Assembly (NCBI RefSeq): GCF_009389715.1
Contig: NW_024067666.1
Coordinates: forward strand, 1,095,001 to 1,159,000
DNA length: 64,000 bases
From: Phoenix dactylifera
Taxonomy: Eukaryota; Streptophyta; Magnoliopsida; Arecales; Arecaceae
Reading direction: 5' to 3'
The notes beneath the pieces were generated by a model. That model did no database searches, had not been told where the DNA came from, and worked only from the letters and a program-made list of their open reading frames with translations. Position numbers and translations under genes: made by a program. Below, in pieces: positions 21,369 to 57,345 of the stretch. Positions within the stretch are counted from its first letter, which is position 1. The number at the start of each line of letters is the position of its first letter.

Positions 21369-21596
21369 GTTGACGAAGATTTGGCTTATGAAGAATTTCC
21401 TTTACGTATTATCGATCGCAAGGAGCAAGTTTTGAGGCGGCGCACCATCCCCTATGTGAAAGTACAATGGAGCAACCATTCAGAAAAAGAGGCAACTTGG
21501 GAGCTTGAGGATGAAGTGCGTGCGAGGCATCCGCAACTCTTTGGAGTCTCAGGTATGTAAATTTCGAGGACGAAATTTTATTTAAGGGGGGGAGAA

Positions 21597-23955: not shown

Positions 23956-26900
23956 TTAAGAAAACAGTAGTAGTTGATTTTGTTTTTAAGAACTGCATAA
24001 TTCAGATAGGAGATAGAGAACTGATGGCGGACTTGATACAATTAGATATACATGACTTCGATGTGATTCTTGGGATGAACTGGCTGTCTGAATATCATGC
24101 TCATATTGACTGCTATGGCAAGAAGGTAGTGTTCCAGATGCCTGATGATCTGAAATTCTTCTACCAAGGTGATGCACCCACCATAAAGCCCTCCTTGCAT
24201 ATTATTTCTGCTATGAGTGCAAGGAAAGCGCTAGGAAAGGGATGTCAGGCCTATCTAGCTTATGTTGTGGACACTCAAAAAGAATCAGGACTGGATGATA
24301 TCCCTATTGTAAGGGAATATCCAGATGTTTTTCCGGAGGAGCTACCTGGACTACCCCCTAATCGAGAAATTGACTTTGAAATTAATCTCATACCGGATGT
24401 TGGACCAATCTCTAAGGCTCCTTACCGGATGGCCCCTGCGGAGCTGAGAGAATTGAAAGTTCAGCTACAGGAGCTTCTAGATAAGAAATTCATCCGCCCG
24501 AGTGTTTCTCCATGGGGAGCTCCTGTACTATTTGTAAAGAAGAAGGATGGAAGTATGCGGCTGTGTATTGATTACCGAGAGCTGAACAAGGTGACAGTTA
24601 GGAACAAGTACCCTTTGCCCCGCATTGATGACTTATTTGATCAGCTGCAAGGTGCCCAAATCTTCTCCAAGATAGATTTGCGATCCGGTTATCATCAATT
24701 AAAAATAAGAGCCGAGGATGTGCCTAAGACTGCATTTCGAACCAGGTACGGGCATTATGAATTTTTGGTTATGTCTTTTGGACTAACCAATGCACCTGCT
24801 GCCTTTATGGACTTGATGAACAGAACCTTCAAGCAATATTTGGACCACTTTGTTATTGTTTTCATAGATGACATATTGATCTATTCTAAGAGCAAGGAAG
24901 AACATGAAGATCACTTGAGAAAGGTGTTGCAAACTCTTCGGGAGAAGAAGCTCTATGCCAAATTGAGCAAATGCGAGTTTTGGCTGGACAACGTCGCATT
25001 CCTCGGGCACGTGATTTCCAAGGAAGGGGTATCAGTGGACCCAAAGAAAATAGAAGCAGTGGTGGACTGGCCTCAACCTACAAATGTGACTGAGATTAGA
25101 AGCTTCTTGGGATTGGCTGGGTACTATAGAAGATTTGTGGAAGGGTTTTCCCGGATAGCTACTTCTTTGACTCGTTTAACCCAGAAACGAGCAAAGTTTG
25201 AATGGAGCGAGGATTGTGAACGAAGCTTTCAGGAGTTAAAGCGAAGGTTAGTGTCTGCTCCCGTTCTCACTCTGCCGTCTAATACTGGGGGTTTCACCAT
25301 TTATAGTGATGCCTCTAAGAAGGGGTTGGGCTGTGTACTGATGCAAAATGATAAAGTAGTGGCTTACGCCTCTAGACAGTTGAAGCCCTATGAGCAGAAC
25401 TATTCGACACATGATTTGGAATTGGCAGCGGTAGTCTTCGCTCTAAAAATTTGGCGACACTATCTGTATGGGGAGCCATGTGAGGTATTTACTGATCACA
25501 AAAGCTTGAAGTATATATTTACCCAGAAAGAGTTAAACATGAGGCAGAGGAGATGGCTTGAATTACTGAAAGATTATGATTTAAATATTAAGTATCATCC
25601 GGGGAAGGCTAATGTGGTGGCAGATGCCCTCAGTAGGAAGTCAGCAGTGGGCACAACAGCCTTGCTCACTACTCAAAAGCAAATTTTGAAAGATCTCCAC
25701 ATGATGCAGATTGGGGTGACTACCAAGGATGCTGGGAGCATGCTGGCTAGTTTGATGGTAGAACCCACATTGATAGAGAAAATAAAGGCTGCCCAACAAA
25801 CAGATGCACAGATGTGTCGGCTCATCAAAGAAGCAGAAAGAGGGTTGCGACCCGAACTCAGGATTCACCCAGATGGTACTCTACGATTTGGGAGTAGACT
25901 GTGTGTACCTAAAGATGCTGACTTGAAGAAAGAGATTTTGGAGGAAGCTCACCAATCCCATTTCTCTATTCATCCTGGAAGCACTAAGATGTATAGAGAT
26001 TTAAGGGAACATTTTTGGTGGAATGGCATGAAAAGAGAGATAGCCGAGTTCGTAGCTCGGTGCTTGGTATGCCAACAAGTGAAAGCTGAACACCAAAGAC
26101 CTGCAGGATTGTTGGAACCATTAGAGATACCAAATGGAAATGGGAACATATCACCATGGACTTCGTCATCGGGCTTCCCAAGACAGTCAAGAAAAATGAT
26201 GCAGTATGGGTAATTGTTGATCGCCTCACAAAATCAGCTCACTTTTTACCCTTTAGGGTTGGCACTTCACTTGATAGGCTGGCGCAGAGGTACATTGACG
26301 AAATCGTGCGCCTACATGGGGTACCGGTGAGCATCGTGTCTGATCGGGACCCACGATTTGTATCTAGATTCTGGAAAAGTTTTCAGGATGCCATGAATAC
26401 TGAATTGAGGCTCAGCACCGCTTACCATCCTCAGACCGATGGTCAGTCAGAAAGGACGATCCAGACCTTAGAGGATATGTTGAGAACATGTACGGTTGAT
26501 CTTGGAGGTTGCTGGGATAATCATATAGCCTTGGTGGAGTTTGCTTATAATAATAGTTATCATTCTAGCATCAAGATGGCACCATATGAAGCTCTTTATG
26601 GGAGGAAGTGCAGGTCTCCTCTGCATTGGGATGATGTCGGAGAGAAGAAGTTATTGGGTCCGGAATTAGTGCAAAATGCCAGAGAGAAAATCTTGTTGAT
26701 CAGAGAAAGGCTCAAGGCAGCTCAGGATAGACAGAAGAGTTGGGCAGATAAAAAGCGGAGAGAAGTAGAATTTCAAGCAGGTGATTGTGTTTTCTTGAAG
26801 ATTTCACCCTCGAAAGGTGTCATGAGATTTGGGAGACATAGTAAACTAAGTCCTCGCTACATCGGGCCCTTTGAGATTTTGGACAGAGTTGGAGAGGTTG

Positions 26901-27211
26901 CTTACAGATTAGCCTTGCCACCCGGGCTATCTAAAGTACACAATGTTTTTCATGTTTCCTTACTAAGGAAGTATATCTCGGATCCCAGTCACGTGGTACA
27001 ATATGAGCCATTGCAAGTTGATGAAGATTTGACTTATGAAGAATTTCCTTTACGTATTATCGATCGCAAGGAGCAAGTTTTGAGGCGGCGCACCATCCCC
27101 TATGTGAAAGTACAGTGGAGCAACCATTCAGAAAAAGAGGCAACTTGGGAGCTTGAGGATGAAGTGCGTGCGAGGCATCCGCAACTCTTTGGAGTCTCAG
27201 GTATGTAAATT
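23956..27211 (+). pseudogene. Gypsy pol, copy 2: no gag, frameshift in integrase
   Basis: Homology to copy 1 starts at its codon ~414 ([11 protein letters not shown]), so gag, zinc knuckle and the protease active site are absent. The frame entering from 23847 is LTR sequence and only fused by chance. Reverse transcriptase and RNase H are open to 26213; a one-base deletion near 26132 (before the integrase core) shifts the frame. The rest, from about 26156 to the stop at 27209-27211, is open and includes the integrase core and the C-terminal chromodomain-like tail that copy 1 lacks. Neither copy is complete. Confidence 0.9.
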
Positions 27212-27244
27212 TCGAGGACGAAATTTTATTTAAGGGGGGGAGAA

Positions 27245-29590
27245 TGTGAGGCCCAAGCCGGAGGAGATGCCAGAATCCTCGGCTGCGCCTTCTCGAGCAT
27301 AACGGGGGCGAGATCCGCGGCCGCCATTTGAATGGCCGATAAACCCGAGCAACCGCCGCTGAAATTGCGGCGGTGAATGAGCATAGCCGTTTGTAAAATC
27401 CCCCCATTGACCGCATCTGAGATCCACCAAGCACTCCTCCTTCTCCACCCCACTCTGTCTCTAACCCCTTTCTTCTCCTCCGCTGCTAGGGTTTGGAGCT
27501 CGCACCAGTGCCGCCGGAGAGAGTAGCCACAGCTTCTCTTTATAGCAAGGTATACCCTAACCCTGTGTCCTTTTTACCTTATAATAATGAAATAAAACAA
27601 AAGAAGAAGAGGGGAAGAAGGCGTACCTGTGGTCGTCTGCGCCGCCGGCTCCCGGCCATAAGTGCCGTTTGGTTTCGGCCGCAGCCACCGCCAGTCATCG
27701 GTAGGGACTGCAGCCGGATCAGAGCCTTTCCCTTCTCCCCTCTGGTGGGACAAAGGGGGCAACTCACGCCTGTCTCCCTGGGTGAGAAGCAAGAAAGAAA
27801 GAAAGAAAAAAAAAAAAAGGAAGGGGAACGCCGGCCACGGGCCGCAGGCACGACCTGCGACTGCGGGCGCCGGAGGCCGGGGACCGCCGACCGCAGGCAC
27901 GACCTGCGACTGCGGGCGCCGGAGGCCGGGGACCGCCAGCCGCAGGCCGTGGGTTCGGCCACGGCTGCAGCCACGGACCGAGGGCACGGCCACGGCCGCA
28001 GCTGCGGGCGCCGTAGGCACCGTGGGCGACGGCCACCGGCGGCGCATCGGCCGAAGGGGCGTCGCCGGCTGCCGTTCGGCCCTCTCGAGCCCGACCTCCC
28101 TTACGGGAGAAAAAGGGGGGGGCGAGAGAAGAAGAAGAAGAAGAAGAAGAAGAAGAAGAAGAGGGGAAGCTTCGGGAAGAGGGGAAGCGTCGGGAGGGAA
28201 AAAAAAAAAAGAAAAGGAAAAATAAAATAAATGATAATAATAATAAATATGTAATTAAATAAATAGAGAATTAAGGTAATAGATGTATTTAAATGAAATG
28301 AAATAATAATAAATAAATAAATTAAAAATAAAAAAAAATGATGAATGAGTAGTAAATAATCTGTCCTCTATGATGATGATAGGTACAGTGAAATTGTCAT
28401 CTGGTTCTAGAGATTCGTGAGCGAATCAAGGTAAGTAACCCTGGCACTGATCTTATTAATTTAAAAATTACTGTTTAATTGTAAAAATAAAATAATAAAA
28501 AAAATATATTTGTTATGATGTATTTTCTTAAAAGTAGGATCAAGCATATGATTGCATGTGATTCATAAGTTTGATTAAATTGCATCCTTCATAAATATTT
28601 CAGTATAAATTATGGTTATGATAAATTGCATGAAAATGAGATTTGTGGCATGATTATGAATTTTATACATTACGATGAATTATGGTTATGATAAATCGCA
28701 TGGAAATGAGATTTGTGGCATGATCATGAATTTTATACATTACGATGCCTTTTGTCATTTTCCAACCTATGTATGAAAGTATGACTAATGAAAAAGAATA
28801 ATGATTTATGAACTCTCAGATAGCTATGCCCACCTCTAGAAATAGAGGTCAGTCGACCCCCCCCTGGAGCTAGCATCCAACGAATATGGCCCTCTGCCAA
28901 CGGGTTAAAGTTGGTAACGAATAAGAATAAGTGATAAAACTTGTCGACTACGAATACGAACCCTGTCACAGGATTATAGTGACCATAGCAGTACATCCGT
29001 CTGAGAGTAAGATTTATAAAGAATGGATGAATGGCAATATTTTTATAAGACTTGCATTATCATGTTTATGAACTCGCATGGTTGAAGCATATTTTGCTTT
29101 TTAAACCTGTTTGAATAGTTTATCTATGAAATGCTTTATTTTCTGTTAAGTTCTTCAAATGATGCATTGGCATGAGAAAAATTATGCTTGATCTAATGGG
29201 ATAGTACATGGTTACTTACTGAGTAGCAAGCTCATACCTCCCTGTTGTTTTCTTTATTTATTTCAGATAATTAAGACGATTTGGAGCGGAAAAGAGTGAA
29301 TGAAAATTGGAGTGGAAGCATAGTTATAGGGACTCTTAGAAGTATCTATGTTAATAAGTTTGGGTTGTAATATTGCAAACTCAAGTATTTGATTAGATGC
29401 ACTGTATTTGCTTCTTTATGGTTAGTCAATAAACTTGATCGGATTTGGTTTTATTCCATAAAATAATATTGTTATCATGGGCTGCGTGTTATTGTGGGCA
29501 GCAACCTACAATAGCACGGCCATGTCATGAGCCGGATCTGGGATGCAAAAAAAAAAAAAAAAAAAAAATGTCCGGATTCGGGGCGTGACA
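27245..29590 (+). repeat. Gypsy LTR 3
   Basis: TGTGAGGCCCAAGCC at 27245 to GGGGCGTGACA at 29590, about 2.35 kb, the only full-length LTR here. More single-base differences from LTR 2 than LTR 1 has. An A-tract at about 29549-29572 precedes the final 18 bp. A GC-rich interior part and a (GAA)n run match the other LTRs. Confidence 0.88.
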
Positions 29591-29606
29591 TTTAGTGGTA
29601 TCAGAG
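29591..29606 (+). other. Remnant primer-binding site after LTR 3
   Basis: TTTAGTGGTATCAGAG directly follows LTR 3, like the sequence after LTR 1. LTR 3 was therefore once the 5' LTR of a further unit, now lost at a CAGAG microhomology with the TRIM. Confidence 0.8.
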
Positions 29607-29907
29607 GCGGGGCGTGACATTTGGTATCAGAGCCGAGGACGGCTCTTGTCCGATGGTGGGAAGGGTGTGAGGCCCAATAGTCCCACATCGGAAAGACTCG
29701 TTCTAGAGCCTGGGCATATGAGGCGGGTGACTCCAAATCCTGCAGACGCGTTTTGGGTGGAAAACAAAACCGGGGAGGGGTGAAGGACGCTTGCGTGAAG
29801 CCCCAGAACCGGACAATATCTGGCAGGGGAGTCCCGTGTTCCCCCCTCATGTGGCCCCCACGTGGGCACTAGGTGCCTCACGTGCCTCGCAGAGGCGGGG
29901 CGTGACA
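29602..29907 (+). mobile_element. TRIM-1, right copy, 5' LTR truncated
   Basis: The last ~16 bp of the 5' LTR (to 29619) are followed by a 46-bp internal region (29620-29665) with primer site TGGTATCAGAGC and a purine-rich GGTGGGAAGGG. Then a complete 3' LTR, 29666-29907, 242 bp, TGTGAGGCCC to GGGGCGTGACA. No coding capacity. The inverted counterpart is at 15464-15830. Confidence 0.85.
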
Positions 29908-29912
29908 GAACC

Positions 29913-30275
29913 TTCCAGGGATAAGCTCTTGAAGGAGAGTGGTGCTAACCAGCTAACCTCATAGCTGTTTGGTAGAGATTCTAGTCTTAGAATCTCATGC
30001 TGTGACATGGGCAATAATGGCAGCACCCTTCTTTCACATAAATTGTTTTTTGAAATTTCTACTGTGGTTTTTCTCAAAAGGAAAAAAAAAGGACTTTGCA
30101 ATATGGTATTCTTTACCTCATTCTTTCTTGATTTCATCTAAATTGACCGAGCAGGTTAAATCATGAATGGAAACAATCTGTAAAGTATGGCTTCCCTCCT
30201 TTCAGGGTAAATAGTGACTGTGTAGCAGCCATTTGAAATAATTAGATTTTCAATTCTAAGACAGGTAATTCATAC
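29913..30275. other. CACTA 1 interior between composite and captured exon
   Basis: Continues CACTA 1 after the composite. Probably intron DNA of the captured beta-glucosidase gene on the minus strand; no further exon recognised. Confidence 0.45.
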
Positions 30276-30519
30276 CTGATACTTCTCCCGGTACCTCTTA
30301 ACAGCAGCAGCATGAGATAAGATGAGATTATGGGCAACAATATAAGGCTCAGTAGCAGAGTTCCCACCGGCTGAACAGTTTGTACACCTTCCTGGGGCAA
30401 ATTTACCCTCATCATATCCAAGAGCTGCCACCACCCTTGGCTCATTGAAAGTGAACCAATTTTTCACTCTATCACCAAATGTCTTGAAACAAAAGTCAGC
30501 AAAATCTGCGTATGCCTCC
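30276..30519 (-). pseudogene. Captured exon of a family 1 beta-glucosidase
   Basis: A 244-bp exon with acceptor TGCAG| at 30520 and donor |GTATGA at 30275. It encodes [37 protein letters not shown] and [20 protein letters not shown], which are diagnostic for plant GH1 beta-glucosidases. TFNEP holds the catalytic acid/base Glu. The neighbouring exons of the gene were not found, so this is an isolated piece inside CACTA 1, antisense to the transposon. Frame and splice sites are intact, which suggests recent capture of genomic DNA. Confidence 0.9.
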
Positions 30520-32700
30520 CTGCATGTCATGAATCAAAGATCTAGCTCTAAACCATTTGACTCTTTTTTTCAGAAATAATGGAAAGAATGGAGATTTTGC
30601 TATTCTGGTTTCATTAATCTTATGGACTAGGGAAACCAGAGGTGTGCCCTGGTGTGTCTGGTCTCCTTTACTACTTGGAAAATCATAAATTTTGTAGAAT
30701 ACATTTGATTGCACAAACAGTGATTTTATGTCTTTCTTTCCCCTTCTCTTTGTTTCACATGCACTAAGATCCTTCCGTGCAGACAGTGATTTTTGATTGT
30801 AAAAGATTGGAGCAAGCAAAACGCCATAGAATTTCAGCATCTCCCAAAACAATGGTTAACTATGTATAAAAGGTGATCGGGCAGTAGTTGTGAATTGAAC
30901 TCGCCAATATTATGCTGACTTCGGACCGTGGACGCATGACCATGCATATAACTTAAGAGAAATTTAAATTACTAACTCCTTGAATTTCAAGCAGGAACAT
31001 ATGCCAACAATCAAACTAATTGATGGCTTGCAAGATACAGCGGCAGGTATAATGATCAGTTACATGATGCCAAAACTCTTAGGAGTCAATAGATTTGTAT
31101 CCGACGACTGCTATTATATTGATGTTTCATCAGAGCCAACATTAGTTTTTGTTAAAGTTTTAACTCTTTGCATTTGCATTGTTTTTAGCATATTTTATTT
31201 TATTTTTTGGATCAGATTTCCTATTTTTGAATTGGGTTTTCTATTCTTAATAGACTTATTTTGATTCAATAAAAGGCTTTCATAGAGCAGAGGTTTCGTC
31301 CACAGAAAGAGGGCTAGGGTTGGGAAATACTACCATGAAAATGTTTGTTCTAGAACTAGAATGGGCAGAAGTATAGTCAAATTTGAAGTCAGGATGAATT
31401 GAACCTGATTTTTTTTTTGTACCAATATGAATAAATCATAACCTTACCAACTCAACCAATTGGCAACCTCTAATTGTGCCCTTAAAAGGACTTTCAAATT
31501 CACCCACGCCATCAAAATTAGCTCAATGAATCTTGGCCAAGTCAAATAAACAGGCTCTTCAAAGTACTAACTAGTCAAAGATAGAATAGCATGCACCACC
31601 TAATGTTCCATATGTTCTACTAGATCCTTTGCACGCACATGTTTGGATGTTGTCTGAAAAAGAACTGAGATGTTTTTGTCACTTAAAGATCATCCAATCC
31701 TTTAAAGTTGTGTGGTCTTCAAAAAGAAGGCTTCACAGTTGTGATAATTGCAGATCCATTTCAATTCAAAATTATAGACTAGAAATGTCCTCGAGCGAAG
31801 CCACAGGGGCCAAACTAATTTAAACTTTGATTCTGGCCAACCTAACTTTCAAGAACCGTAAAGTTTTTGGGCAACCCTTGCCGGAACCGAGCCCACCTTA
31901 AACACTTGAAATTATTTATCCAGCATGAAAAAAATTACGTAAATGCTTATATTGATGCTTCTTTAAATTATTTTCAATTCTAAATTACGTAAATTCTTTA
32001 AATTGTTCTGATAAATCTCTTGTGATATAGCTTTTACTTCAGAATTGCATAATCACATTGTCCATTGTATGCCAAAACAATGCTGATTGCACTGCTAGCT
32101 CCAGTCATGTAATTGATCATGCAGTGCTTCAGGTTCAGTAATGTCTAGAAAGAACGCATATTCATCTCTTGTCTATGGGAAAGGTAGTGTAATAATTTTA
32201 TCCTATCCAATTTTTATATAATTTTTGCCATTCATTGTGATTATCTGATTCTTTTCCCAATTTCTCCCTACTTTTCTCTGCAATGTAAATTTTGCATAAA
32301 TCTACTCTCGTTTACAAGCTTCTTATGCTTCTCCTTTACAGGCAAGTAGAACAATCCTTTGATACTACTTCTACGCAAGCGACTAAGGTCTAGTTCACTT
32401 TTAAACCAAAGCTGCCCTTATTTCGCTGCATGGTTAATAACTATCTGATTTTGCCATCAGACTTGATACAGGATTATTAGTTGCTAGATATTTATTTTTC
32501 TTGGCAACTTTCTTCTTCATAGTTGTGAAATGGTTAGTCCCCACACTCTTTGTCCTACATTATTGCTTGTCTTTTTCCTGCATATGCTAATTTATCTGGT
32601 TGAATGAATTATTGTGTTCTCTTTTATTAGCAATTCATTTAGTATAAATTTATCAATTAACTAATATTAATTCTTTTTTGTGCATACCAGGTAACAATAT
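30520..32700 (+). other. CACTA 1 interior, right part
   Basis: AT-rich. Just right of the captured exon probably its upstream intron. No TNPD or TNPA domain seen. From about 32690 the sequence (GTATATTCTTGTACGAGCGT near 32768) matches the last TNPA intron of CACTA 2. Confidence 0.5.
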
Positions 32701-32830
32701 GCCCCGAGGAAAACGATTTATGTAATCATCAATAATTACATAAATCTATATTTTATGTAATTATAGTATATTCTTGTACGAGCGTAATGATTTTTGTATT
32801 CTTAGTTTCTAAAGTTTTTTTTTCTTGTAG

Positions 32831-32878
32831 GTTGCTGATACTTCTACTCGTAGAGATGATGATGCCGTCGACCCTTGA
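32831..32878 (+). pseudogene. Orphan last exon of the CACTA TNPA-type gene
   Basis: After TTCTTGTAG| the exon encodes VADTSTRRDDDAVDP and a TGA. The same exon ends the TNPA-like gene of CACTA 2 (VADTSSTRRDDDAVDS). The other exons are missing here. Confidence 0.8.
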
Positions 32879-33109
32879 GTCCTCGTAGACTGTTTATTTA
32901 GAAATTTGCTATGTATGTTTTTAATATTTTTAAAGTACAATGTAATCAAATATGATAATATGATTAGCTTTTAATAAAAAATTTTGTTTGTGATGTGACT
33001 TTTGTGATGGAATAATAGGTTGTGTGTTTGCTGTGCTGGAAAAATTTGTTTTATAAATTTGTATACAGGTTTCACATTTCTTTTTATGAATTTTTTTTTT
33101 AAAAAATCT

Positions 33110-33581
33110 CTATTGCCGACGCTTAAAAGCGTGGGCAATAACACTATCCCGGCACAGGCGCATTAAAAGATTTTAAGCCTTTGCCGACGCTTTAAAGCGT
33201 CGGGAAAGGTAATCGGATGTAAAGCCTTTGCCGACGCTTTAAAGCGTCGGTAAAGGTAAGGTAATGCCGACGCATAAAAGCGTCGGTAATTCCGGCACTA
33301 ACACTATCCCGGCACATGCACACCGACGCATAAAGGCGTCGGTAATCCTTTGCCGACGCTTAAAATCGTCGCATTACGTTACCTTTGCCAACGCTTTAAA
33401 GCGTCGGTAAAGGTAAGGTAATGCCGACGCAGGCGAAAAGCGTCGGAACGAAAATGGTCCACGCCCACCTGCCCGACAGTTTCGTGACGCTTTTGGACGC
33501 GTTGGATTAGAAAGTACTGACGCTTATAAGCGTCGGTAAAAGCTCTGGAAAGCGCCGGGAAATACTATTTTTTTTGTAGTG
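33110..33581 (+). repeat. CACTA 1 right subterminal repeat array and terminal repeat
   Basis: About nine palindromic units of type GCCGACGCTTTAAAGCGTCGG, variably spaced and in part mutated, end at the terminal CACTACAAAAAAAA (read on the minus strand). Such arrays are the known transposase-binding regions of CACTA ends. The left end has only about three partial units. Confidence 0.85.
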
Positions 33582-45839: not shown

Positions 45840-45869
45840 TAACACTACAAAAGAAAGGATATCTCCCGG

Positions 45870-46170
45870 CACTTTTTTTGGTCTCTCCCGACGCTTTTAA
45901 GCGTCGGCGAATTCCCAGCCCACGCATCGCAAAGCGTGGGTCAGACGTCGGGCAGGTGGGCGTGGGTCGGGTTTAACCCGACGCGTTAAAAAAGCGTCGT
46001 CGCTCTATGCCGACGCTTTTAAGCGTCGTTCATTTTATACAAACCCGACGCTTAAAAGCGTCGGCGTACTTGAACTGACGCTTCCCACCGTATTTTGTGT
46101 TGGACTATGCCGACGCTTAAAAGCGTCGGTTTATGCTACTTGAGCGACGCAATAAAGCGTCGTTAAACAT
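45870..46170 (-). repeat. CACTA 2 subterminal repeat array
   Basis: About six units such as CCGACGCTTTTAAGCGTCGG, some imperfect, between 45885 and 46165. Probable transposase-binding sites by analogy with CACTA ends. Confidence 0.85.
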
Positions 46171-47192
46171 CAAACCTATGGGTTGCGAACTAAGACCTTG
46201 ATCCACTGTCCAATACCGCCCTACCCACCAAAATTACCCTTTCACATGCTTGCATCCTCCGCGGTTCACTCTCGCAGACACCTCCACTTTTATTGATTTC
46301 AAACAACCAGCCAACGAACCATAGGAGATTATTTCTTCCTTTTATTGAAATTTTGCAATAATAGAAATACTACAGTATGGCCTGGATATCACAAATTTGA
46401 AATATTAAAACATCTTCTGCGCACACATAAATAGGATAGGATGGCATATATCTGATCCTTTCCAAACCCACCTTATCTAATAAGCCACCCCTTTTTATAT
46501 TAGATTACTTAATTGTAATCCTGAATGGTCCATCATCCTGATGAGTAAAACCCATAATTTGTTAAGTCTTCGGATATACCTTGGCCGCTGACCAGAACTC
46601 TGGTTTCCACCCTCAAGGCCTTGTCACCCTGATTTCTATTCTGTTCTCTGAACAAATAGTAATTGAAGCAAGATTAATCACATAGGTAGAATTGTTACTG
46701 AAAAGACTAATTACCTCCAGATTTAGGCTACCTGCAAAAAACAAGAATACAGCTCATCTGTCCCAAACGTTTCTATAAAGCCAGAGTGCTGAGAGTACAC
46801 TACATAAGATCAGTTTGTCCGGCGCGAGACAAACGTATCACTTGGTTTTTTTTTTTTTTTTGGTACAAAAAAGTATCATTTGGTTGAAGAGACATAGTTT
46901 GCCAAGAAGCACATCCATCATGGAGGCTAGACATGGAAAAGCAAGCACGTGTTACCTTAAAAACTAAGATTTACCAACAATCAGTGCAGCAGTAGCTCTG
47001 TTCCACTGCTTCCAACACTAATTATAACAAGGTATGCATTTCTACACCACTGGGATTAGTAAGATAGAACAAGAAGTTCAGTACAGATGACACAAAACAT
47101 TTAGTCTACGAATAAATAAACCATCAAAGTAGCTTCCAAAAATTCCTGTGGCTTACTTCCACAGCTTACTTCCACTGCAACACCCCCCATGC
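46171..47192 (-). other. CACTA 2 interior, end side
   Basis: No exon recognised. A T18 run lies near 46844-46861. The part next to 47192 is probably the 3' untranslated region of the captured LEUNIG-like gene. Confidence 0.5.
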
Positions 47193-47336
47193 TTACTTCC
47201 ACAGCTTAACAGACTTGTCATGGCTAGCAGAGGCCACCATTCCTGTGGCTTGTGACTGTGCCGATGCTGCAATAAGACCTTCGTGTGCCTGGACCGTCAT
47301 GGTTTGGTTCTCTATCACATTCCACAGCTCCAAAGA
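47193..47336 (-). pseudogene. Captured last exon of a LEUNIG-like WD40 co-repressor
   Basis: After acceptor CTTGCAG| at 47337 the exon encodes 47 residues from [20 protein letters not shown] through [16 protein letters not shown] and the stop TAA. This is the final WD40 repeat and natural C-terminus of plant LEUNIG/LEUNIG_HOMOLOG proteins. The splice acceptor and stop are kept, so genomic DNA was captured. The preceding WD40 exons are not present. Same direction as the transposase genes. Frame intact. Confidence 0.88.
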
Positions 47337-47555
47337 CTGCAAGAATTGAAAGAATACAGAACAAAAATTAGCAAAAGCACACAATCAAGTAAAATGCAAA
47401 CGATCAAGATTGCTGGCCAGCAAAATAGAACCACAAGAATGATCTATCAGGTTTCTCACGTATGACAAGTAGCCCTGCTAACCATCGAAGAAGAACAAGA
47501 GGAAGAAAAGCAAAATCTACAGTTTACTTTCATGAAGAAGATGTATTCCAGTTAC

Positions 47556-47615
47556 CTCATCTAGATCGTGGGAGTCAAGTCGTCCAGCCGGACTGCCTGT
47601 CCTGAAACCATGTTC
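47556..47615 (-). pseudogene. Possible captured exon of unknown gene
   Basis: A 60-bp open stretch bounded by TTGACAG| (acceptor) and GATGAG|GTAAC (donor), encoding EHGFRTGSPAGRLDSHDLDE, exactly 20 codons. I do not recognise the source gene. Its acceptor side is repeated at 49103-49166. Confidence 0.45.
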
Positions 47616-49166
47616 CTGTCAAGTCAACATAGAACATACTAATTAAAGTCCTTTCTAAGATCTATACCCGATCATACTGCAACAACCGCCGCTGTTTTTT
47701 TAGTACCAAAAGCCTGCCCAATATTTTCAATAACTGCGGCTCCCAGTCCAACATGTAAAGCAGAAGAAAGCATACCTTCCTTCCGGCCGAGCAAACAGTA
47801 GGATTACCCAATACAAATTGTTCCCATTATCTAAAGTTTCAGAGAATGAAATCAAAGTTTACCCAGCAAATATTTGCATGTTGCCAGTGAATCATGCACA
47901 AGAAAGGATGACCATCTTACTGTTCAATTATGAAGCACCATGGTTACAATTCCAAACATTATAGCAACATCTCTATCATTCTTGAATCACACATAAGTTT
48001 AGCCTGCATCTATAATACAGATTCCTCCACAAATGCAGCATCGAGAGCTGTGTACAGAGACATGTACAGACTCAATGATACTGGACTTGGGTCCCAAATA
48101 ATTATTGCATCCTTTTACATACTTGGGAGTCAGAACTCCCTATCTGGGAAGAGAATGGGAGCAATTAGAGACCAGATGTAGAGAGCTGCTGTGGCCCACC
48201 CAGTCACAATCCTGACCCACACAGAGGGCCACCCAACATCAACAAGCTTACCACTTTCACCAACGGACGTGGACCAGCCAGTAAGAAGCATAGCCGAGTA
48301 CATGCTGGCAAGGGAGAAAATGAGGTGGAAGAAGGAATATGAATAGGAGACAGGCTTAGCCTCATCCTTCTTCCTGTCTTCCTGCTCCTCTACCTTGTCA
48401 AAAGGAAGCAAAGGCCTCTCAGAACCTACACTAGGTGGAACACAGGAAACATCGAGCACATGTCAAAGGCCATCTAGAAAACTGAAGTCAATCAGTGAAG
48501 TAGGTTTACAAATCAAAGATTGAATACAGACTGGCACATACACTAACCTCGATCATTACATGAATCACCTTCATTTACCACAACAGTACCATGTAAACCA
48601 TATAAGAAAGTTGTATTGCAATCAGAAAATGCCAGTTTGCAAAGTGATCATAAAGCAAATTAAACAAAATTAACCACCTAAAATATGGCATACAACTTAA
48701 ATTTCTATAACTAACAAATGCATGTTTTTTAGCTGGATGATGCCAATTCAATACTTCAATTGATCAAGCAATAGTAATACGTGTTAAAAATTCTCACCCT
48801 GCAAATCCACTATGGATTAACTCAGCATTACTGGGATGCTGGACCTGTACCAAGTAGCAGCAAATGATCCATGTCAGTCACTAATTTGCAGAGAAAAGAG
48901 CGAGAAGACTTGTCAATAGTGCAAGGGTTATACCATTATACCAGTAATGGGACCGGTCTATTGGCCCTGGAGCCCGTTAGGACCTAAAATGGAGTGGAGT
49001 GTCTAGATAGTGTTTCTTCCTTTGGCTGAGGTTGACCGAATCTGCATTATCTATCTTAAACCGATCAAACTCTACAAACTAATTGTTATACATAAGATTT
49101 TGGAAACCATGTTCCTGTCAAGTCAACATAGAACATACTAATTAAAGTCCTTTCCAAGATCTATAC
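47604..49166. repeat. 64-bp direct repeat around the captured SERINC piece
   Basis: GAAACCATGTTCCTGTCAAG and the following 44 bp occur at 47604-47667 and 49103-49166 with one mismatch (T/C). The SERINC fragment lies between the two copies. Confidence 0.9.
48130..48444 (-). pseudogene. Captured 3' exon of a SERINC family gene
   Basis: Encodes about 100 residues: SVGSERPLLPFDKVEEQEDR, KPVSYSYSFFHLIFSLASMY, LLTGWSTSVGESGKLVDVGW, VRIVTGWATAALYIWS and ending LIAPILFPDREF plus TGA. This is the conserved C-terminal part, with the last two membrane helices, of plant serine incorporator (TMS1/SERINC) proteins. The piece starts just before GSERP; an in-frame stop lies upstream, so the rest of the gene was not taken. 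No frame damage. Same direction as the transposase genes. Confidence 0.9.
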
Positions 49167-49282
49167 TTATCAAAGTTCTGGCATAATCGTATTTTGGAAA
49201 TTGAGGTAAGTATCAAAAAAAAAAATTTAAAACAATCTAAAAACATTCATCTCAAATTCGTAAGTACACAATCTACGATGTA
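48460..49282 (-). other. CACTA 2 interior between captured SERINC piece and TNPA
   Basis: AT-rich; probably in part captured intron DNA. Contains the second 64-bp repeat. Near 48950-49000 a stretch with GGACCGGTCTATTGGCCC shows no coding potential. Confidence 0.45.
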
Positions 49283-51124
49283 TCAAGAGTCGACGGCATC
49301 ATCATCTCTACGAGTAGATGAAGTATCAGCAACCTACAAGAAAAAAATACTTTAGAAACTAAAAATACGAAAGTCATCACGCTCATACAAGAATACATTA
49401 TAATTATATAAAATATTCAAATATATTTAGTTATGTACCGGAGGTGCAAATCTCTGCAAAAAAGATGAAATATGGTCAAGCTGATCCTGCAAAGATTGTA
49501 TCTTCAACTCTTGGCTCTGCTTCAACTCCGCCATATCAGTCATATGACTCTGCCTCATCTCCTCTATCCTTGTCTCATATGACTGCTTTATCTGTGCCAT
49601 CTCTGTCTTCAAACTACAAACCTCTGCAGTGCTAGTACCTTGTCTGGCATCTTGGGTATATCGGCTCACTGCAGACAGCTGAGTGGGGGTAACTCCGATA
49701 CCGTAACCCTTCATGCGACCATAACATTCTGGGCCCATCAATTCTGCATAGACCTGAGCCTCGACGCGACTGGCCGCGTCGGATGATGATGACTCCCCGA
49801 CGCGCTCTGAAATGAGATTTGTAGCTCTTTCCTATATCTCTCTCAAAAAAATAAACAGTCACATTAATAATTTAAAGGAAGTAAAATTAATAAAAAAATT
49901 ATGATCAAATAAAAAATGAATACATACAACTATATCTCTCGACTCGTCCCGGACAAAGCTGCCATCTCGGTGAGTGTGGGTCATCTTATAAAACTCTACC
50001 TCACCAGGCTCCCTTCCATGCTCTACTATCTACACATACGGAAAGTATATTGCCAAACTATATATCATGATACGTGCTATATGTTAGTAGAGTTTCAAAT
50101 AGTTTCAAACAAACTTACGAATTCATTTCTACGTCTCGCATAATTCTTCGAGCCTGAAGTATGAGGAACTACTTGAGATGCTCGTGCAGCTCTACCAATA
50201 TTAGAATATGTCTGCCAAAATAAAAGCACACAGTATAATATTATTCAATGTATATATTTGCAAGCTATATTAATAATAAAGATAATATAAGATATTGAAA
50301 CAATATACGTGACCTGTCCTTTTTCAGAAAACCAGTAGTGAACAAGCTCCCTCCACTGCTGAGGGTATACATCAGGAGGAGTCACACGAGCAACCTCCTC
50401 CTCTGTCATACCCTCACGCTTGAAGTCCGTCTTCAATTTTGCTTTATATTCTTTCCATTTGCGGTTGAGGGACTTTAGCACCCAATCATGGCTCTCTGGA
50501 GGGAGTACAAACTTACCCTACAACAAGATACAGAATGTTGTAATAATATTAAACCTCAAAAGTAAAATCATGGTAGTAAGCAAATTAACATGCAGGAGGT
50601 GTCAAATTAAAAAGAACAAATTCAATTCATTACCTGTATGAGTCTAAGAAGCTCAACCTTATACGAAGGAAGCATGTCATTCCACTTCGTATAGTTGAGC
50701 GGACACAGCTGACCCTTGCGTGCAACCGATCCTAAAAAGCTTGATAGAAGACTTCCAGCTCTATTGATGGGCTGCCCCAATTCGTTGCATCGGATGATGA
50801 TCTTCTCACCCGGAGGAAGCTTCCACACATCCTTTGCTTGAGTGGGTCCCCATCTCGTCCTCACTGTCCCTTGTCCATCTATTCAAATTAAATAAAATGT
50901 CTTAAAAAGTTGAAGACAAATATGAACATAAAATATGAACTTTAAATCGAATTACCCTGGATCCAGAGCTCATCCTCCGGACAATCAGCAGGAGGCTCGC
51001 GCTGAGATCCTGACTCGTGCTGCTGGTGCTCATATGGCTGCTGGGACTGCAGGGACTGCTCAGAAGTAGATCCCACCTGAGAATGCTGGAACTCCACATC
51101 TCTAAATCGTCTCCCTCGGGGCAT
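49283..51124 (-). CDS. TNPA/TNP1-like accessory transposition protein of CACTA 2
   Basis: Binds subterminal repeats by analogy with TNPA of En/Spm. Likely exons on the minus strand: 51124 to about 50942 (MPRGRRFRDVEFQHSQVGST), about 50880-50640 (RTRWGPTQAKDVWKLPPGEK, the plant transposase_24 signature), about 50518-50320 (VLKSLNRKWKEYKAKLKTDF), about 50213-50120 (YSNIGRAARASQ), about 50035-49930, about 49840-49440 (coiled coil ending SSFLQRFAPP) and 49336-49283 (VADTSSTRRDDDAVDS, stop TGA). Joins have GT/AG and no stop is seen in these exons. Start codon is the first Met before the conserved part. Exon ends other than the last are approximate. Confidence 0.75.
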
Positions 51125-51267
51125 ATTGTTACCTGGTATGCATAAAAAAGAATCAATATTTGGTTAACTGATAAATTTATACTAAATAAAGGGCTAATAA
51201 AAGAGAATATAATAACTCATTCAACGTATGCTTCATAAATTTTACTTACCATTATGAAACTACATTC

Positions 51268-54200
51268 TCATTCAACATCCATCCTAATCAAACTCATTGG
51301 CGCATTTACTTCATCAGTTGGCACAACATTATAAGGCATACACTGAGTATAAGTATCATCGTCCTCCTCTTCCAACCTTTTTCCCATATCATACAAGTCC
51401 CTAGGTTTCGTCTTAATAACGAGAGACCAATTTTTATCTTTTAAGTCTTGCACAAAAAATACTTGTCGAGCTTGAGATGAAAAAACAAATGGATCATCTT
51501 TCAATAACACACCAGTATGTATCAACCTTGAAAAATTTACAAGTGCGAATCCATTTATGTCTTGCCTCAAACCTCTAGGTGAGTTTATATCCACCCAATC
51601 ACATCGAAATAATACTACCTTAAACTTTCCATAATAATCCAGCTCATAAATATCTGTTAGAGCACCATAATAATTTTTTCCATCCGCCTCAACCATAACC
51701 CCACTATTTTGGGTTTTTCTAAATTTCTCACGCTCTTTAGTATGAAATTTAAAACCATTTTTAATGAACCCACCATATCTGTTGACAATATTATTCGGAC
51801 CTCGAGCAATGACTATTAACTCCTCGAAACAATTCCTCTCCATCATCATTGGTACCTAAAAAGAATTATAGAAGTAATGATTAATTTCTCTCTATAAAAA
51901 TTAAAAAAAACTTAATATATTAGACATCTAACCTGTTTGAAAAGCCATTCTGGAAATAACTCAACCAACCATCGTTGCTCAATCCTTGGTGTAGGACGAA
52001 TGTTATGGTTGAGACTTCGCTGAGCCATTAAAAATTCTCTGCACGATCAGAAAATCTTTAATTGAGTATCAATATTACATTCTCCTGACATGACAGTAAA
52101 TTTAGATTTTCATTAACCGTACTAACCTGCGAGACGTGGATATTATATCACTATGAAGTAAGACATAGCGATGTGCCTGTGCCAACGATTTCTGGTCAAG
52201 AACAACACTTTCAACTTTTCCCAAAACTCTTCCACCAGATGAGAACTTGTAAACATCTGCATTCTCTATGAAATCACAATTCCTTTGAGGTCGATTGAAA
52301 ACCGTTTCAACACCTTCAAGATATCTCGAACAAAATGTCAAACACTCCTCAGCAATATATCCTTCAGCAATCGATCCCTCGGGATAGGCTCGATTATGTA
52401 CATAATCTTTTAAGCGCATAAGAAACCTTCAACAATAAATTTTTAAAATAAATATCAAAATCAAACTGATTATTAAATTTGGCTATTAGAGTTTAGAAAA
52501 ATCACCTCTCAATAGGATACATCCATCGGTAGTGAACCGGTCCACCAAGTTTAGCCTCTGCCGCTAAGTGAATGAGTAGATGAACCATAATAGTAAAAAA
52601 CCCAGGAGGGAAGATCTTTTCCATATGGCATAGTGTAAGTGTAACATTAGACTCCAATTGATCAAGCTCTTTAGGATCAAGAACTTTAGAACATAATGCC
52701 TTAAAGAATGATGACAATTGAGAAACAATTGCGAAAATTTGTTTCGGTGTTGACGATCTTAAAGCCAATGGAAAGATATCTTGCATCAAAATGTGACAGT
52801 CGTGACTTTTAAGATTTGAAAGTTTACGCTCTTTGAGATTTACGCATCGTGAAATATTCGATGAGTACCCATCAGGAACCTTCATATTTTTCAGAACTGT
52901 TAGAAAAAGATCTTTCTCTTGAGTAGACATTGTATAACATGCAGGAGGTGTATAAAATTTATCATTGGCAAGCTCTGTCGGATGAAGCTCTTGTCTTATG
53001 CCCATATCTTTCAAATCAAGACGCGCTTTCAAGTTATCTTTGGTCTTTCCATCAAGATTTAACAATGTTCCAATCAGGTTATCACAAATGTTCTTCTCTA
53101 TATGCATCACATCAAGGTTATGTCGAAGAAGATTATACTCCTAATAAGGTAAATCAAAGAAAATGCTCTTTTTTTTCCATAGTTGTTTCTGTGTAGATGC
53201 TGCCATTGTTTCCTGACCATATACGTTGTCTTCATTCTCAAAAAAGTTGTCAGCATCCTCTTCAACCTCTGCTATTAATCCTTCATTCATTGTGCTGCCA
53301 ACATGCTCCCTTCCCCTCTTCTTTGAACATTTGGAGACCTTACCCGGTATATAATTGGTGCCATGCATTTGTCTAAGGACTTCAGTTCCAGTTGGTGGAA
53401 TAGGGGCAGATCGCAACTCTATGGTACCATCAAATAAGTCTTTCTGAAATCGAAATGGATGGTTTGCTTCTAACCACCGACGATGGCCCATATAACAGAA
53501 CTTTCCTCCATGTTTTAACCAATATGAATGGGTTGAATCTCCACAAGAAGGACATGCAATACGCTTCTTAGTGCTCCAACCAGATAAATTAGCATATGCA
53601 GGAAAATCATTGATAGTCCACATAAGAGCTGCACGCAATTTGAAATTTTGGCCAGCGAAAGCATCAAATGCATCAATACCCTCCCATATTTGTTTCAATT
53701 CCTCTATTAGAGGCTGTAGAAAAACATCAATATCATTACCTGAGCCCTTGTCACCTGGAATAACCATTGACAGAATTACTGAAGACTGTTTCATACACAT
53801 CCATGGTGGCAAATTATATGGAATTAAAACAACCGGCCAAGTGCTGTATGTTGAGTTCATCGTTCGAAATGGATTAAATCCATCAGTAGCTAAACTTAGC
53901 CTAACACTGCGAATATCAGAAGCAAATTCGGGATGCCTATCATCAAATGCTTTCCATGCAGGACTATCCGCTGGGTGTCGTAACATTCCATCCTTTATAC
54001 GACCTTCGTCATGCCATCTCATCGAGGAAGCTGTCTTCGATGATGCAAACATCCTTTTTAATCTTGGTATAAGAGGAAAATACGTCAAAATTTTAGCCGG
54101 TTTTTTCTTAGTCAGTGCAGCATCCACTTCAGTCAATGAATCATTCTCATCTTCTTTAGGTTTTACCCATCGTGAAGTTCCACATATTCGGCATGACTCT

Positions 54201-54928
54201 TGGTTGCTATTTTCACCACGATATAAAATGCAGTCATTCGGACAACTATGTATCTTCTCGTATCCAAGGTCCAACTCTTTTATTAGTTTTTTGGCTTCAT
54301 ATGAAGATGATGGCAAAGTAACACCTTCCGGAAATGCATCCTTTAATAATTGAAGAAGCATGGTAAAAGACTTGCTGGACCACCCATTCAAATATTTCAA
54401 ATGTAATAAATGCAGAAGAAAAGAAATCTTCGTAAAATTCTTACAACCCAGATACAGTTCTTGATCACAATCTTTCACCAAGTTATCATAATGAGCTGTG
54501 TCATCAGCATGTATAGATTCCTCAACATGCATGGACTGATCAATAACTGCACGCTCATTTTCTCCTACAGTTCTGATATTATATCCAAGAGCATCTCTAA
54601 GTAGGCCCCTTATATCATCTTCTTCTACAGAATTTTGTTCCGTGTCACTACATCCAAAATTGAAGGTGTCTTCTAGATAGGGTTGGTTACATGACGGTAT
54701 GAACTCTCCATGGAGTACCCATTCAGTATAACCCTTTAGAAAACCATTCCATACCAAATATTCTTCAACAATTTTTGGATCAAGAGCAGAACCGTTTACA
54801 CATTTTTGACATGGACATAAAATTTTTCCGTTCATATTAGATTTCTCAAAAGCAAACTTAATGAAATTCTGAACTCCATCCAAATATTCGGCACTGGATC
54901 TCAACTTATTTATCCAACTTTTGTCCAT
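51268..54928 (-). pseudogene. TNPD-like transposase of CACTA 2, one stop codon
   Basis: Cuts and rejoins CACTA ends in En/Spm-type transposition. 54928-53144 encodes the N-terminal transposase-associated domain (MDKSWINKLRSSAEYLDGVQ, CPCQKCVN) and the Transposase_21 core (KILTYFPLIPRLKRMF, MRWHDEGR, DGFNPFRTMNSTYSTWPV, GWSTKKRIACPSCG). A TAG at 53141-53143 stands where relatives have Trp. The same frame then continues (EYNLLRHNLDVMHIEKNICD, DUF4218) to a donor at 52505. Further exons: about 52429-52130 (GSIAEGYIAEECLTFCSRYL), about 52040-51930, and 51849-51268 (DUF4216, ending MDVE). The stop is the only break I see. It could be read through or reflect recent decay. Confidence 0.88.
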
Positions 54929-56855
54929 TCTATTAGAATACCGATTGAACTGCAGTTCATATAAGAAAGATAAACACTATTAGAAGGATGGACTACATAT
55001 AAATTGCATGAAAAAAAGCATGTGACACTTACTATAACCTCACAATATATTGCCTGACATTCAAAATACAAAAATAATGCGTTGTAATCATTCTCAAAAC
55101 AAAACCATAGCTTGTTAAGAAACCTACCTTACAATTTAGTCCATTTTGAAGGTTCCTTGGATCCCAGTTTTGAAATCCAGGTCAGAAGATACTAATTGAA
55201 TCAATATTGGCAAACATCTACTATCACGAGTTGATCTATTCCCATACACATATGTAGTTTCATAGGAGCCTAAAGTTGATCTTATCATTTCTCATAAGGG
55301 TAAGTGCACCAATCCAAGATATTACGAATCAAGATCTAATATGCATAAGGGCAAGTAATGCATAATGCATCCACATTCCACAGTATGCATGAAACAGATC
55401 CATAGTATATGCATGAAACAGAAAAAAACAAAAATCCATATTATATGCATGTGACAGTTGGGACGAATCAAAGCATCGATAATCCCACTAGGCTGTATTT
55501 CATCTTGTACATTTAAACCTATACAAAAAAGAAGAGAAGATTTCCAACTTATATTCTGCATTTATTGAATGTGAATTGGATGCACCATTATCATATGATT
55601 TGGTGGATGCATGTAACATACAACTTGTAAGCTATTTATTTTGAATCCAAAACACATAGCAGCAGATGCCTTTTTCTTATTTTATTTATACGTGTTTGTC
55701 GAAAGATTTAACAAATGGCACCTTTTCTATGGTCCTATCTTTCTTGAACCATGGATGTATTATTTTGTGCAATAGTTCATGTGATGGTCGGTGAGACATT
55801 GTATTTAGCTAACCATGATACCATGATATAATCTACCATGATACCCAACCTTAGATGGCATGGGGTTCACCATGGATTGCAGATGAATTGCATTGAGCTG
55901 GCTTTGCCCACTAACCTATTAGATTTTACCATGTGGAATCTTCATTGCTGTTACTTCACACAGCAGCTGCTAAGCAAAAAAAATAATAGAAATACAATTT
56001 ACGATCGTTATCGAATCATGATTTTATTAAAGCAGTCATCGTATCGCAAAAATTATGATCGTTATTCATGATTTGCACTACTTATCTAAGTAAAATAATG
56101 TCTTTCAAGATTCAAATCTTTATACTAACTAGACTAACTAGAAAATTTATTAAATAGAAATATGGGCAGATGATATCATTATAAAACCATTATTAACAAT
56201 TACTTTTTGTCATAGTATCAAACAATGGATGATATAATTAATTACTTTTTATTTGAAGATAGATTTAGTAAAATAAGTCTCTTATAACTATTACATTGAT
56301 CAAATAATAATTTCGAGAGAGTCCCTTTATAACAGGCTTGCCATATTAGAAAAACATGCACATCATGGGGGAGGAGGAGGAATGAGATAATAACAATCTG
56401 GGGTATGTAATCTTTTTTGGCTTATATTTTAGGAATTTATGATAGCAAACCTAGGAAAATAACGCTGTTATGCTAGAAATCCAAGGTTCCACACGGGCTC
56501 CTGTTCTGCGGTGTGGTGGCAGGATCACTAGGGGATTGGCTCTGGGTGTAGGTGGGACAACAGAAATGCTTTATACACATGTATATATGTATAAAGAAAT
56601 AGAAAAAAGTGACCAATATATCCAATTTTCTCTTAGTCAATATTTGAACGGGGTGGTTAGATTGGATGCTAGGGCTCGATATAATAGAAGGAAATTATAG
56701 AATGGGAGTTATTTACGGATCTAAACATAAAAAATATAAAACATGAAATGATCTTTCCGCACCTTCTTCGTCTCTTCATCATTTGTCATAGTATCTTAAG
56801 AAATTATAGTTCTTCATCTTTCTGTAAAGTATTTAGCTGACAGGAGAAAGAGAGG
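54929..56855 (-). other. CACTA 2 first intron / upstream of TNPD
   Basis: AT-rich DNA between the leader exon and the TNPD start. Open frames at 55322-55561, 55838-56071 and 56470-56700 have no recognisable content. Confidence 0.5.
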
Positions 56856-57342
56856 GCATACCTCGAATCGGCGCTTCCAAAGAACAAGAAGAAGATCCTC
56901 GGGCGGAGAAGAAGCTCGATCAACGCTTGAGGGCCAATCGGTCGGAGCCGGAGAGGAGGGACGAGGAGAAGATCCTCGGAAACATCCTCGGGCGGAGGTG
57001 AAGCTCGCTCGAGGCTTGAAGGCTTGTCGGTTGACGCCAGAGAGGAGGGAGGAGGCTTGAGGGCGGAGGCAGCCGCTCGTGCCGGAGAGGAGGGCTAGCT
57101 AGGGCTCGATCGGGTGGGTATTCGGGGAGGCGGAGAACCGAAAAAGGAGGGTGGGTATTCGGGGAGGCGGAGAGCTGGAAAAGGAGGCCAGGCTAGGGCT
57201 CGATCGGGAGGGTTGTATTTGGGGAGGAGCCACCGACGCTTCTTTGAAGCGTGAGGGTATGTGAGGCCTGGGGTTTTTTTTTCCGACGCTTGTGGATAGC
57301 ATCGGCAAAAAAGGGTCGCCTTTTCCCAATTTTCCTGTAGTG
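56856..57342 (-). promoter_or_regulatory. CACTA 2 promoter end: terminal repeat and leader exon
   Basis: On the minus strand: terminal repeat, two partial CCGACGCTT units (57225-57310), then a GC-rich leader ending near 56862 with TTCGAG|GTATGCC, a likely donor site. Homologous to 14554-15045 of CACTA 1. Contains direct repeats of GGGTGGGTATTCGGGGAGG near 57112 and 57150. By analogy with Spm this end holds the promoter of both transposase genes. Confidence 0.7.
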
Positions 57343-57345
57343 TAA

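Follow-up and report, generated by a model that had tools for sequence, protein, structure and literature searches.

Terminal pieces of a SERINC gene and a LEUNIG-like gene in a transposase-bearing CACTA element of the date palm

The window analysed here, a stretch of 64,000 nucleotides from the genome of the date palm Phoenix dactylifera (C19:1095001-1159000; C denotes a contig and L a stretch read), harbours a damaged CACTA element which bears transposase genes and whose left part, 3' with respect to transcription, is very probably a patchwork of tail ends of host genes with a history of four steps. DNA pieces of two unrelated genes, a SERINC gene and a LEUNIG-like gene, were copied into the element while the donor genes stayed in place elsewhere in the genome, each capture comprising the end of the last intron, the splice acceptor, the terminal exon, the stop codon and 3' sequence. 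This copying would most likely have occurred by template switching, in the course of repairing a gap that excision or breakage had produced. The left arm with its cargo was then joined to right arms from three or more CACTA lineages, and elements of each such combination transposed. The tail ends could supply splice acceptors and 3' ends to transcripts of the element, being probably passengers in the main.

The element and its transposase genes

The element spans 11,500 bp (45843-57342), starting with CACTACAAAAG at 45843 and ending with CTGTAGTG at 57342 (Table 1). It belongs to the CACTA (En/Spm) elements, as is evident from its CACTA...TAGTG ends, the 3-bp duplication, a TNP2-type transposase with associated domains, and subterminal repeats, which are of the CGACGCTTTTAAGCGTCGG type at the left end and of the form CCGACGCTT...AGC(G/A)TCGG at right ends. 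Exact CACTA ends within a TAA target duplication had been described in the sequence-only reading and are found at just these positions. The ends at 45843 and 57342 belong to one element and not to two different ones: the TAA triplets on either side match, and the element on C9 displays the same end types together with a GTT duplication of its own. Among copies possessing the left end, the sequence following position 46190 or so is variable.

We infer that the element is transcribed from right to left, the captured exons lying downstream of the transposase genes and in the same direction. The transposase genes are not all intact, as the TNP2 gene is split by one in-frame stop between the open reading frames 53141-54976 and 52502-53140. 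The window copy is hence devoid of the intact transposase which characterises an autonomous CACTA element. Pack-CACTA (Pack-TYPE) elements (cited to Catoni et al. 2019) are distinguished by the absence of transposase, the domains of which are present here. Two shorter copies, on C1172 and C149, reveal neither a match to the TNP2 part nor a long TNP2 frame.

A second CACTA left end, CACTACAAAAAAAATAGTATTTCCCGGCGC, is located at position 33581 of the window on the minus strand and is accompanied by subterminal repeats of the same type. This second element matches the main element or its relatives at 32589-32934 in two short stretches which are 84-91% similar. No cargo was seen in it, and a right end with the same three bases was not found from 18000 to 33581.

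Table 1. Features of the element and its surroundings (window coordinates)
Feature	Position	Strand	Remarks
Target site duplication TAA, left	45840..45842	.	direct reading; identical to 57343-57345
Left end and subterminal repeats, CGACGCTT...AAGCGTCG	45843..46190	.	common to other copies having the left end
LEUNIG-like 3' untranslated/downstream piece	46188..46358	-	donor L032 1069-1249; 167 of 181 columns identical, 10 gaps
Segment without traced source	46359..47174	.	46870-47174 common to other copies
LEUNIG-like gene piece	47175..47517	-	341 of 343 bases of the window copy as in donor C18 (L032 1258-1600)
Third-gene piece with exon-like stretch (about 47556-47615)	47519..47667	-	AG and GT borders by eye; extended in L034 and L037
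64-bp direct repeat, copy 1	47604..47667	.	98% to copy 2
SERINC gene piece	47665..48537	-	873 bp, 98.6% to donor C7 (L026 3535-4407)
64-bp direct repeat, copy 2	49103..49166	.	together with copy 1 on either side of the SERINC piece
C-terminal part of Transposase_24-like gene	49427..49831	-	PF03004, E=0.0025 (weak, under cut-off)
DUF4216 frame	51268..51855	-	PF13952
Two DUF4218 frames, downstream part of TNP2 gene	52102..53140	-	PF13960
TNP2 transposase	53141..54976	-	Transposase_21 PF02992, E=2.4e-96; Transpos_assoc PF13963
Right end, type I	56605..57342	.	common to C9 (96.9%)
Target site duplication TAA, right	57343..57345	.	equals 45840-45842

The captured pieces and their donor loci

The SERINC piece comprises part of the last intron, the splice acceptor, the terminal exon (48130-48425) and downstream or 3' untranslated sequence. 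Its stop codon is located at 48130-48132, and the exon start at 48425 was placed by comparison with the intact gene. The translated minus-strand frame 48130-48462 matches the Pfam family Serinc (PF03348, E=6.1e-32) at profile positions 344-434 of 434, i.e. at the C-terminus. The C-terminal SERINC exon with acceptor and stop in the direction of the transposase is as claimed earlier. The donor on C7 is homologous, at about 61-77% identity, to the SERINC locus on C1, the homology extending on the two sides for some 3 kb and 1.7 kb respectively, and it takes in, as judged by eye, an upstream SERINC exon; continuity of the donor is defined here by homology to the C1 locus rather than by an annotated full set of exons. 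A six-frame search of the genome with the protein encoded by the SERINC exon yielded 23 matches (37 of 37 candidates scored), consisting of the donor, the paralogue on C1 (94%), a distant locus on C13 (66%), copies or pieces within transposons, and four weak matches. In the copy on C6 (L024, L025; C6:8086500-8103000) the SERINC piece is interrupted by about 8.8 kb, and the three bases corresponding to 48040-48042 of the window stand on either side of the break, resembling a nested CACTA-type insertion.

The LEUNIG-like piece contains part of the last intron, the splice acceptor, a terminal WD40 exon (47193-47336, minus strand, stop codon at 47193-47195) and a short 3' untranslated region, while the separate 3' piece harbours minus-strand AATAAA motifs at 46289-46294 and 46341-46346. 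The majority sequence of the copies is identical to the donor on C18 at all 343 of 343 positions, and L032 is homologous to the paralogue on C17 on either side of the captured piece. All Pfam matches of the exon are of the WD40 type and fall under the cut-offs of the respective models (best PF25173 with E=1.5e-5; PF00400 with E=1.8e-4). The fragment is tentatively assigned through its identity to C18 and the homology of the latter to C17, whose frames are WD40-like by eye. A LEUNIG gene is defined by its N-terminal LUFS/LisH part; the exon 47193-47336 we take to be the C-terminus of that plant family. Of the LEUNIG-like WD40 exon proposed earlier, the terminal exon with acceptor, stop and transposase orientation stands and has acquired a source on C18, whereas its WD40 nature is supported below the Pfam cut-offs and the name LEUNIG is our presumption.

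A related element on C258 (L031, L033) possesses a longer LEUNIG piece of 405 bp, 99.75% identical to the donor, and a second stretch showing 88% similarity to a different part of the locus of the LEUNIG paralogue. It features an open TNP2 frame of 828 amino acids, and its left side is replaced by sequence which by eye resembles the end of an LTR retrotransposon; the stretch read does not contain element ends.

Since intron and untranslated sequence are kept, the pieces were captured at the DNA level. The sequence-only reading had put forward repeated DNA-level capture of two unrelated genes, and comparison with the parent loci, C7 for SERINC and C18 for the LEUNIG-like gene, supports it: the donors are situated on two contigs, introns and untranslated sequence are retained, and divergence from the donors is unequal. 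Counting substitutions only, the majority of the copies shows 11 fixed differences from the donor in 873 bp of the SERINC piece and none in 343 bp of the LEUNIG piece (Fisher p=0.04), a weak sign that the LEUNIG piece may be the younger one. Relatives with a single piece exist, namely C258, with the LEUNIG piece and no SERINC piece in the 9.5 kb read, and C53 and C2, with SERINC pieces and no LEUNIG piece in the 2.5 kb read; these could also reflect loss. An ancient capture followed by long conservation of the exons, considered in view of 83% matches to C1 and C17, was rejected once C7 and C18, which occur among many matches of 98-100% in the same search, had been recognised as the donors, the loci on C1 and C17 being paralogues of these.

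At the left junction of the SERINC piece TAC is common to both sides, and at the right junction of the LEUNIG piece one extra base is present (both by eye). The left junction of the latter shows 18 bp of the LEUNIG exon end, GCTTACTTCCACAGCTTA, twice at a distance of 40 bp. Template switching is favoured as the mode of copying because the pieces are short, stem from different contigs, and show microhomology, one filler base or a slipped local repeat where they join.

The captured material is wider than originally described, extending over 46188-46358, 47175-47517 and 47665-48537 and, in addition, the exon-like 47519-47667. At least two host genes are represented in the cargo, probably more. 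The patchwork is incompletely explained: sources were traced for the SERINC and LEUNIG-like pieces, not for 46359-47174, 47519-47667 and 48538-49205. Among the 11 other copies read, 46191-46870 occurs in the window's form only in C643. A Pfam match to the third piece (47519-47667) was not obtained, and a PDB match with E=1.1 was taken as chance. The longer forms of this piece in L034 and L037 run into a possible further terminal exon with a stop, which in L034 adjoins the third piece within 700-1405; L034 contains another coding-like stretch between the third piece and the part matching 48562. For the host-exon-like stretches of L034 700-1405 no informative Pfam match was found. In related loci a 108-bp match to 49103-49210 is located beside the third piece, additional to the downstream copy.

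Copies of the cargo and their right arms

A search of the genome (773 Mb, 2,391 contigs) with the block returned at least 53 matches with E<=0.001, the window included (40 of 75 candidates scored, several matches being pieces of one copy). The eight best of them, again including the window, span the block completely or almost so, and the observation is accordingly not due to chance. Other copies thus contain the same block, the cargo being present whole or in part in 11 others that were read, and whole or nearly so in seven places. As copies were found through their cargo, cargo-less elements are under-represented and no count of the family is implied. The element was compared to its copies on the basis of matches longer than 150 bp, while the copy matrix underlying divergences, site counts, shift control and trees was composed of aligned pieces of at least 100 columns. 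This matrix omits C258 and nine short related loci and takes in C6 up to 8,200 of its stretch, the cargo past 48042 missing; C7, treated as donor, was excluded from copy counts and shift control.

The left end is present in the stretch read of 11 elements, the window included, and a matched 3-bp duplication in seven of these 11, C1917 (no left end found) and C7 being excluded from this test. In C332, C3 and C381 (4,901 N) a matched right end is absent from the stretch read, and the right-end match of C643 concerns an unlike end and was not counted. Across the seven elements, one left arm with its cargo is joined to right arms of three types. The first is shared by the window (TAA) and C9 (GTT, 5,902 bp), the second by C1172 (GGA, 8,024 bp), C149 (GGT, 7,648 bp) and C6 (TTG, 13,978 bp), and the third by C1152 (AGA, 12,547 bp) and C14 (TAC, 8,453 bp). 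Over the last 400 bp, right ends of one type agree at 93-98%, and those of different types at 57-64%.

A step in divergence is observed between group A (C1172, C149, C3, C381) and group B (C1152, C1917, C332, C14). Outside CpG the two groups differ by 0.44, 1.02, 0.56 and 0.65% in four segments of 46870-49999, yet over 50000-51191 the figure is 4.25%; the corresponding values for CpG-marked sites amount to 3.75, 0, 3.83 and 4.91%, and to 11.31%. CpG decay as the cause of the lower backbone identity was rejected, as the contrast persists outside CpG. When 46870-49592 was tested against 50093-51191, equal divergence was rejected in each of the 16 A-B pairs, which lack mutual independence, with Fisher p values between 1.1e-15 and 1.4e-8; the values were 1.1e-6 to 8.4e-5 for the window against group A, and 9.2e-8 to 3.8e-14 for the window against group B. 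Sites at which two or more of ten copies carry the minor base number 7 at 46870-49616, 4 at 49617-49796 and 47 at 50051-51170. The boundary is situated at about 49,600-50,050 and is not a sharp point, with some of the sites separating group A already present at 49617-49796. In the backbone tree, calculated without C9 (short coverage), group B is set apart from the window together with group A by a branch of 0.026 (support 1.0), and a branch of 0.013 (0.995) splits off group A, whereas all internal branches of the cargo tree measure at most 0.0013. In the left 348 bp (45843-46190), which are rich in CpG repeats, the window differs from the others by 1.4-6.1%. Since outside CpG the cargo is 0.4-1.0% apart compared to about 4% beyond position 50,000, and since the trees agree, the cargo and the adjoining 3' part of the transposase region moved between lineages by recombination after these had diverged.

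Capture as well as arm exchange could, alternatively, be the outcome of neighbouring insertions, a route proposed for Pack-CACTA elements (PMC8903248, section 9, and PMC13317346) in which two elements come to lie close together and lose their inner ends, after which both are moved by their outer ends along with the intervening DNA. This route would directly account for one left arm being joined to three right arms, an arrangement which is therefore also expected from the fusion of neighbouring elements, and the second CACTA left end is found 12 kb away within the window. A single fusion, however, captures one contiguous stretch, whereas the pieces in question are short, originate from two contigs, and carry microhomology, filler and a slipped repeat at their junctions. 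Furthermore, the second element is in opposite orientation, shows no cargo, and resembles the main element by only 84-91% in two matching stretches. As an account of the whole, we regard neighbouring insertion as a real but somewhat doubtful possibility; for the capture we prefer gap repair, while the exchange of right arms may be due to either fusion or ordinary recombination.

Possible use of the captured tails, and known systems

In 12 copies, the captured exons show 4 segregating sites among 440 as opposed to 44 among 1228 in the rest of the cargo (46870-48537; sites covered by fewer than six copies excluded; p=0.0025). Upon circular rotation of the exon positions along 46870-49205, as few sites were obtained in 128 of 2336 shifts by count and in 4 of 2336 by rate. 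Of the four polymorphisms in coding sequence, three alter the amino acid; the exons combine lower variation with mostly amino-acid-altering changes. Selection on the captured exons was not accepted, given the predominance of such changes and the clustering of the noncoding variation, and we see no good evidence for selection acting on them at the protein level. Between the donor and the majority of the copies the exons differ at four positions, one difference being an exchange of Q to E and three being silent. Comparison with the paralogue places the Q to E change on the transposon side, and selection on the donor alone could explain this pattern. C9, C14 and C381 are without parts of the SERINC exon, the acceptor side being missing as well in C9 and C14. 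To judge from these comparisons, the intactness of the exons reflects youth and would require no function.

That the tails have nonetheless been kept as useful, because transposase transcripts would obtain from them splice acceptors and stops and, close to the left end, a polyadenylation site, we consider unlikely. Both named pieces contain 3'-terminal exons in sense orientation to the transposase, the LEUNIG 3' piece carries AATAAA about 450 bp inside the left end, and fragments in the soybean element Tgm-Express1 are spliced as exons (PMC1947982, accessible text); the scarcity of segregating sites in the exons would also fit. With only two donors identified, however, the shared orientation is not significant, and the shift control by count, the amino-acid-altering polymorphisms and the copies missing parts of the SERINC exon speak against it. 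It is plausible, in view of the AATAAA sites and the soybean precedent, that the tails might furnish splice acceptors and 3' ends. Improbable, too, is the wider proposal that the left arm and the captured tails constitute a traded module, acquired by recombination by lineages with different right arms, which would spread because host 3' ends (splice acceptors, polyadenylation sites) make element transcripts resemble host mRNAs.

Fused RNAs, or RNAs directed against the parent genes, had been suggested in the sequence-only reading as possible products of the element. An action of the captured exons on the parent genes via small RNAs, antisense RNA or dominant-negative fragments appears very improbable. 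Their identity to the donors of 98.6-100% would in principle suffice for RNA-guided silencing, and peptide interference from captured fragments has been suggested in the accessible part of PMC1947982. The exons are, however, in sense orientation to the transposase, so that read-through would yield sense and not antisense RNA, and constraint at the protein level is not seen; antisense RNA would presumably require transcription from the left arm. That the block should represent an ordinary SERINC or LEUNIG locus, or else a false join in the assembly, is virtually inconceivable and has nothing found in its favour, as it recurs completely or almost so at seven further places, several elements have duplications of their own, and the donors reside elsewhere, on C7 and C18.

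The element is a well-resolved new example of the known gene capture by CACTA elements, in which two donors, the junctions, the transfer of cargo and, weakly, the order of captures are readable from one genome. If transcripts of the element turn out to make use of the tails, a direct test would be at hand of whether they help the transposon or are passengers.

In the accessible parts of the literature, capture of several genes by CACTA elements, splicing of the captured pieces and exchange between families are already on record, with precedents in soybean, wheat, Arabidopsis and Chenopodium. A date palm genome paper (PMC12295771) mentions CACTA once, and capture of SERINC or LEUNIG by CACTA, or this element family in a palm, is absent from the titles and beginnings of abstracts searched, a collection with subscription journals largely outside it. 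As far as the available portions of the respective papers go, the closest parallel is Tgm-Express1, a soybean CACTA element of 5.7 kb with five host gene fragments and demonstrated splicing (PMC1947982). Like the date palm element it unites several unrelated host fragments with retained introns and splice sites; unlike Tgm-Express1, the date palm element bears transposase genes and is accompanied by many copies of the cargo and three types of right arm, while splicing has been shown for Tgm-Express1 only. On wheat chromosome 3B a captured gene common to two CACTA families was interpreted, in the text available, as recent DNA exchange (PMC4290129). The two cases have CACTA-mediated capture and the occurrence of captured DNA across lineages in common; in the date palm, in contrast, the exchange boundary is placed at about 49,600-50,050, three right-arm types are involved, and two donors are identified. 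Pack-CACTA elements likewise hold coding fragments between CACTA ends and include hybrid elements; Pack-TYPE elements are, however, defined as non-autonomous, and the survey pipeline designates any element with a transposase match autonomous (PMC8903248, accessible sections), so that the date palm element, as a transposase-bearing one with host cargo, represents a class omitted by definition and would escape a Pack-TYPE count. Finally, Chenopodium CACTA elements, according to the accessible text of PMC8978399, combine coding domains with captured gene fragments as observed here; their fragments precede ORF 1 in the 5' region, whereas in the date palm the captured pieces lie downstream of the transposase genes.
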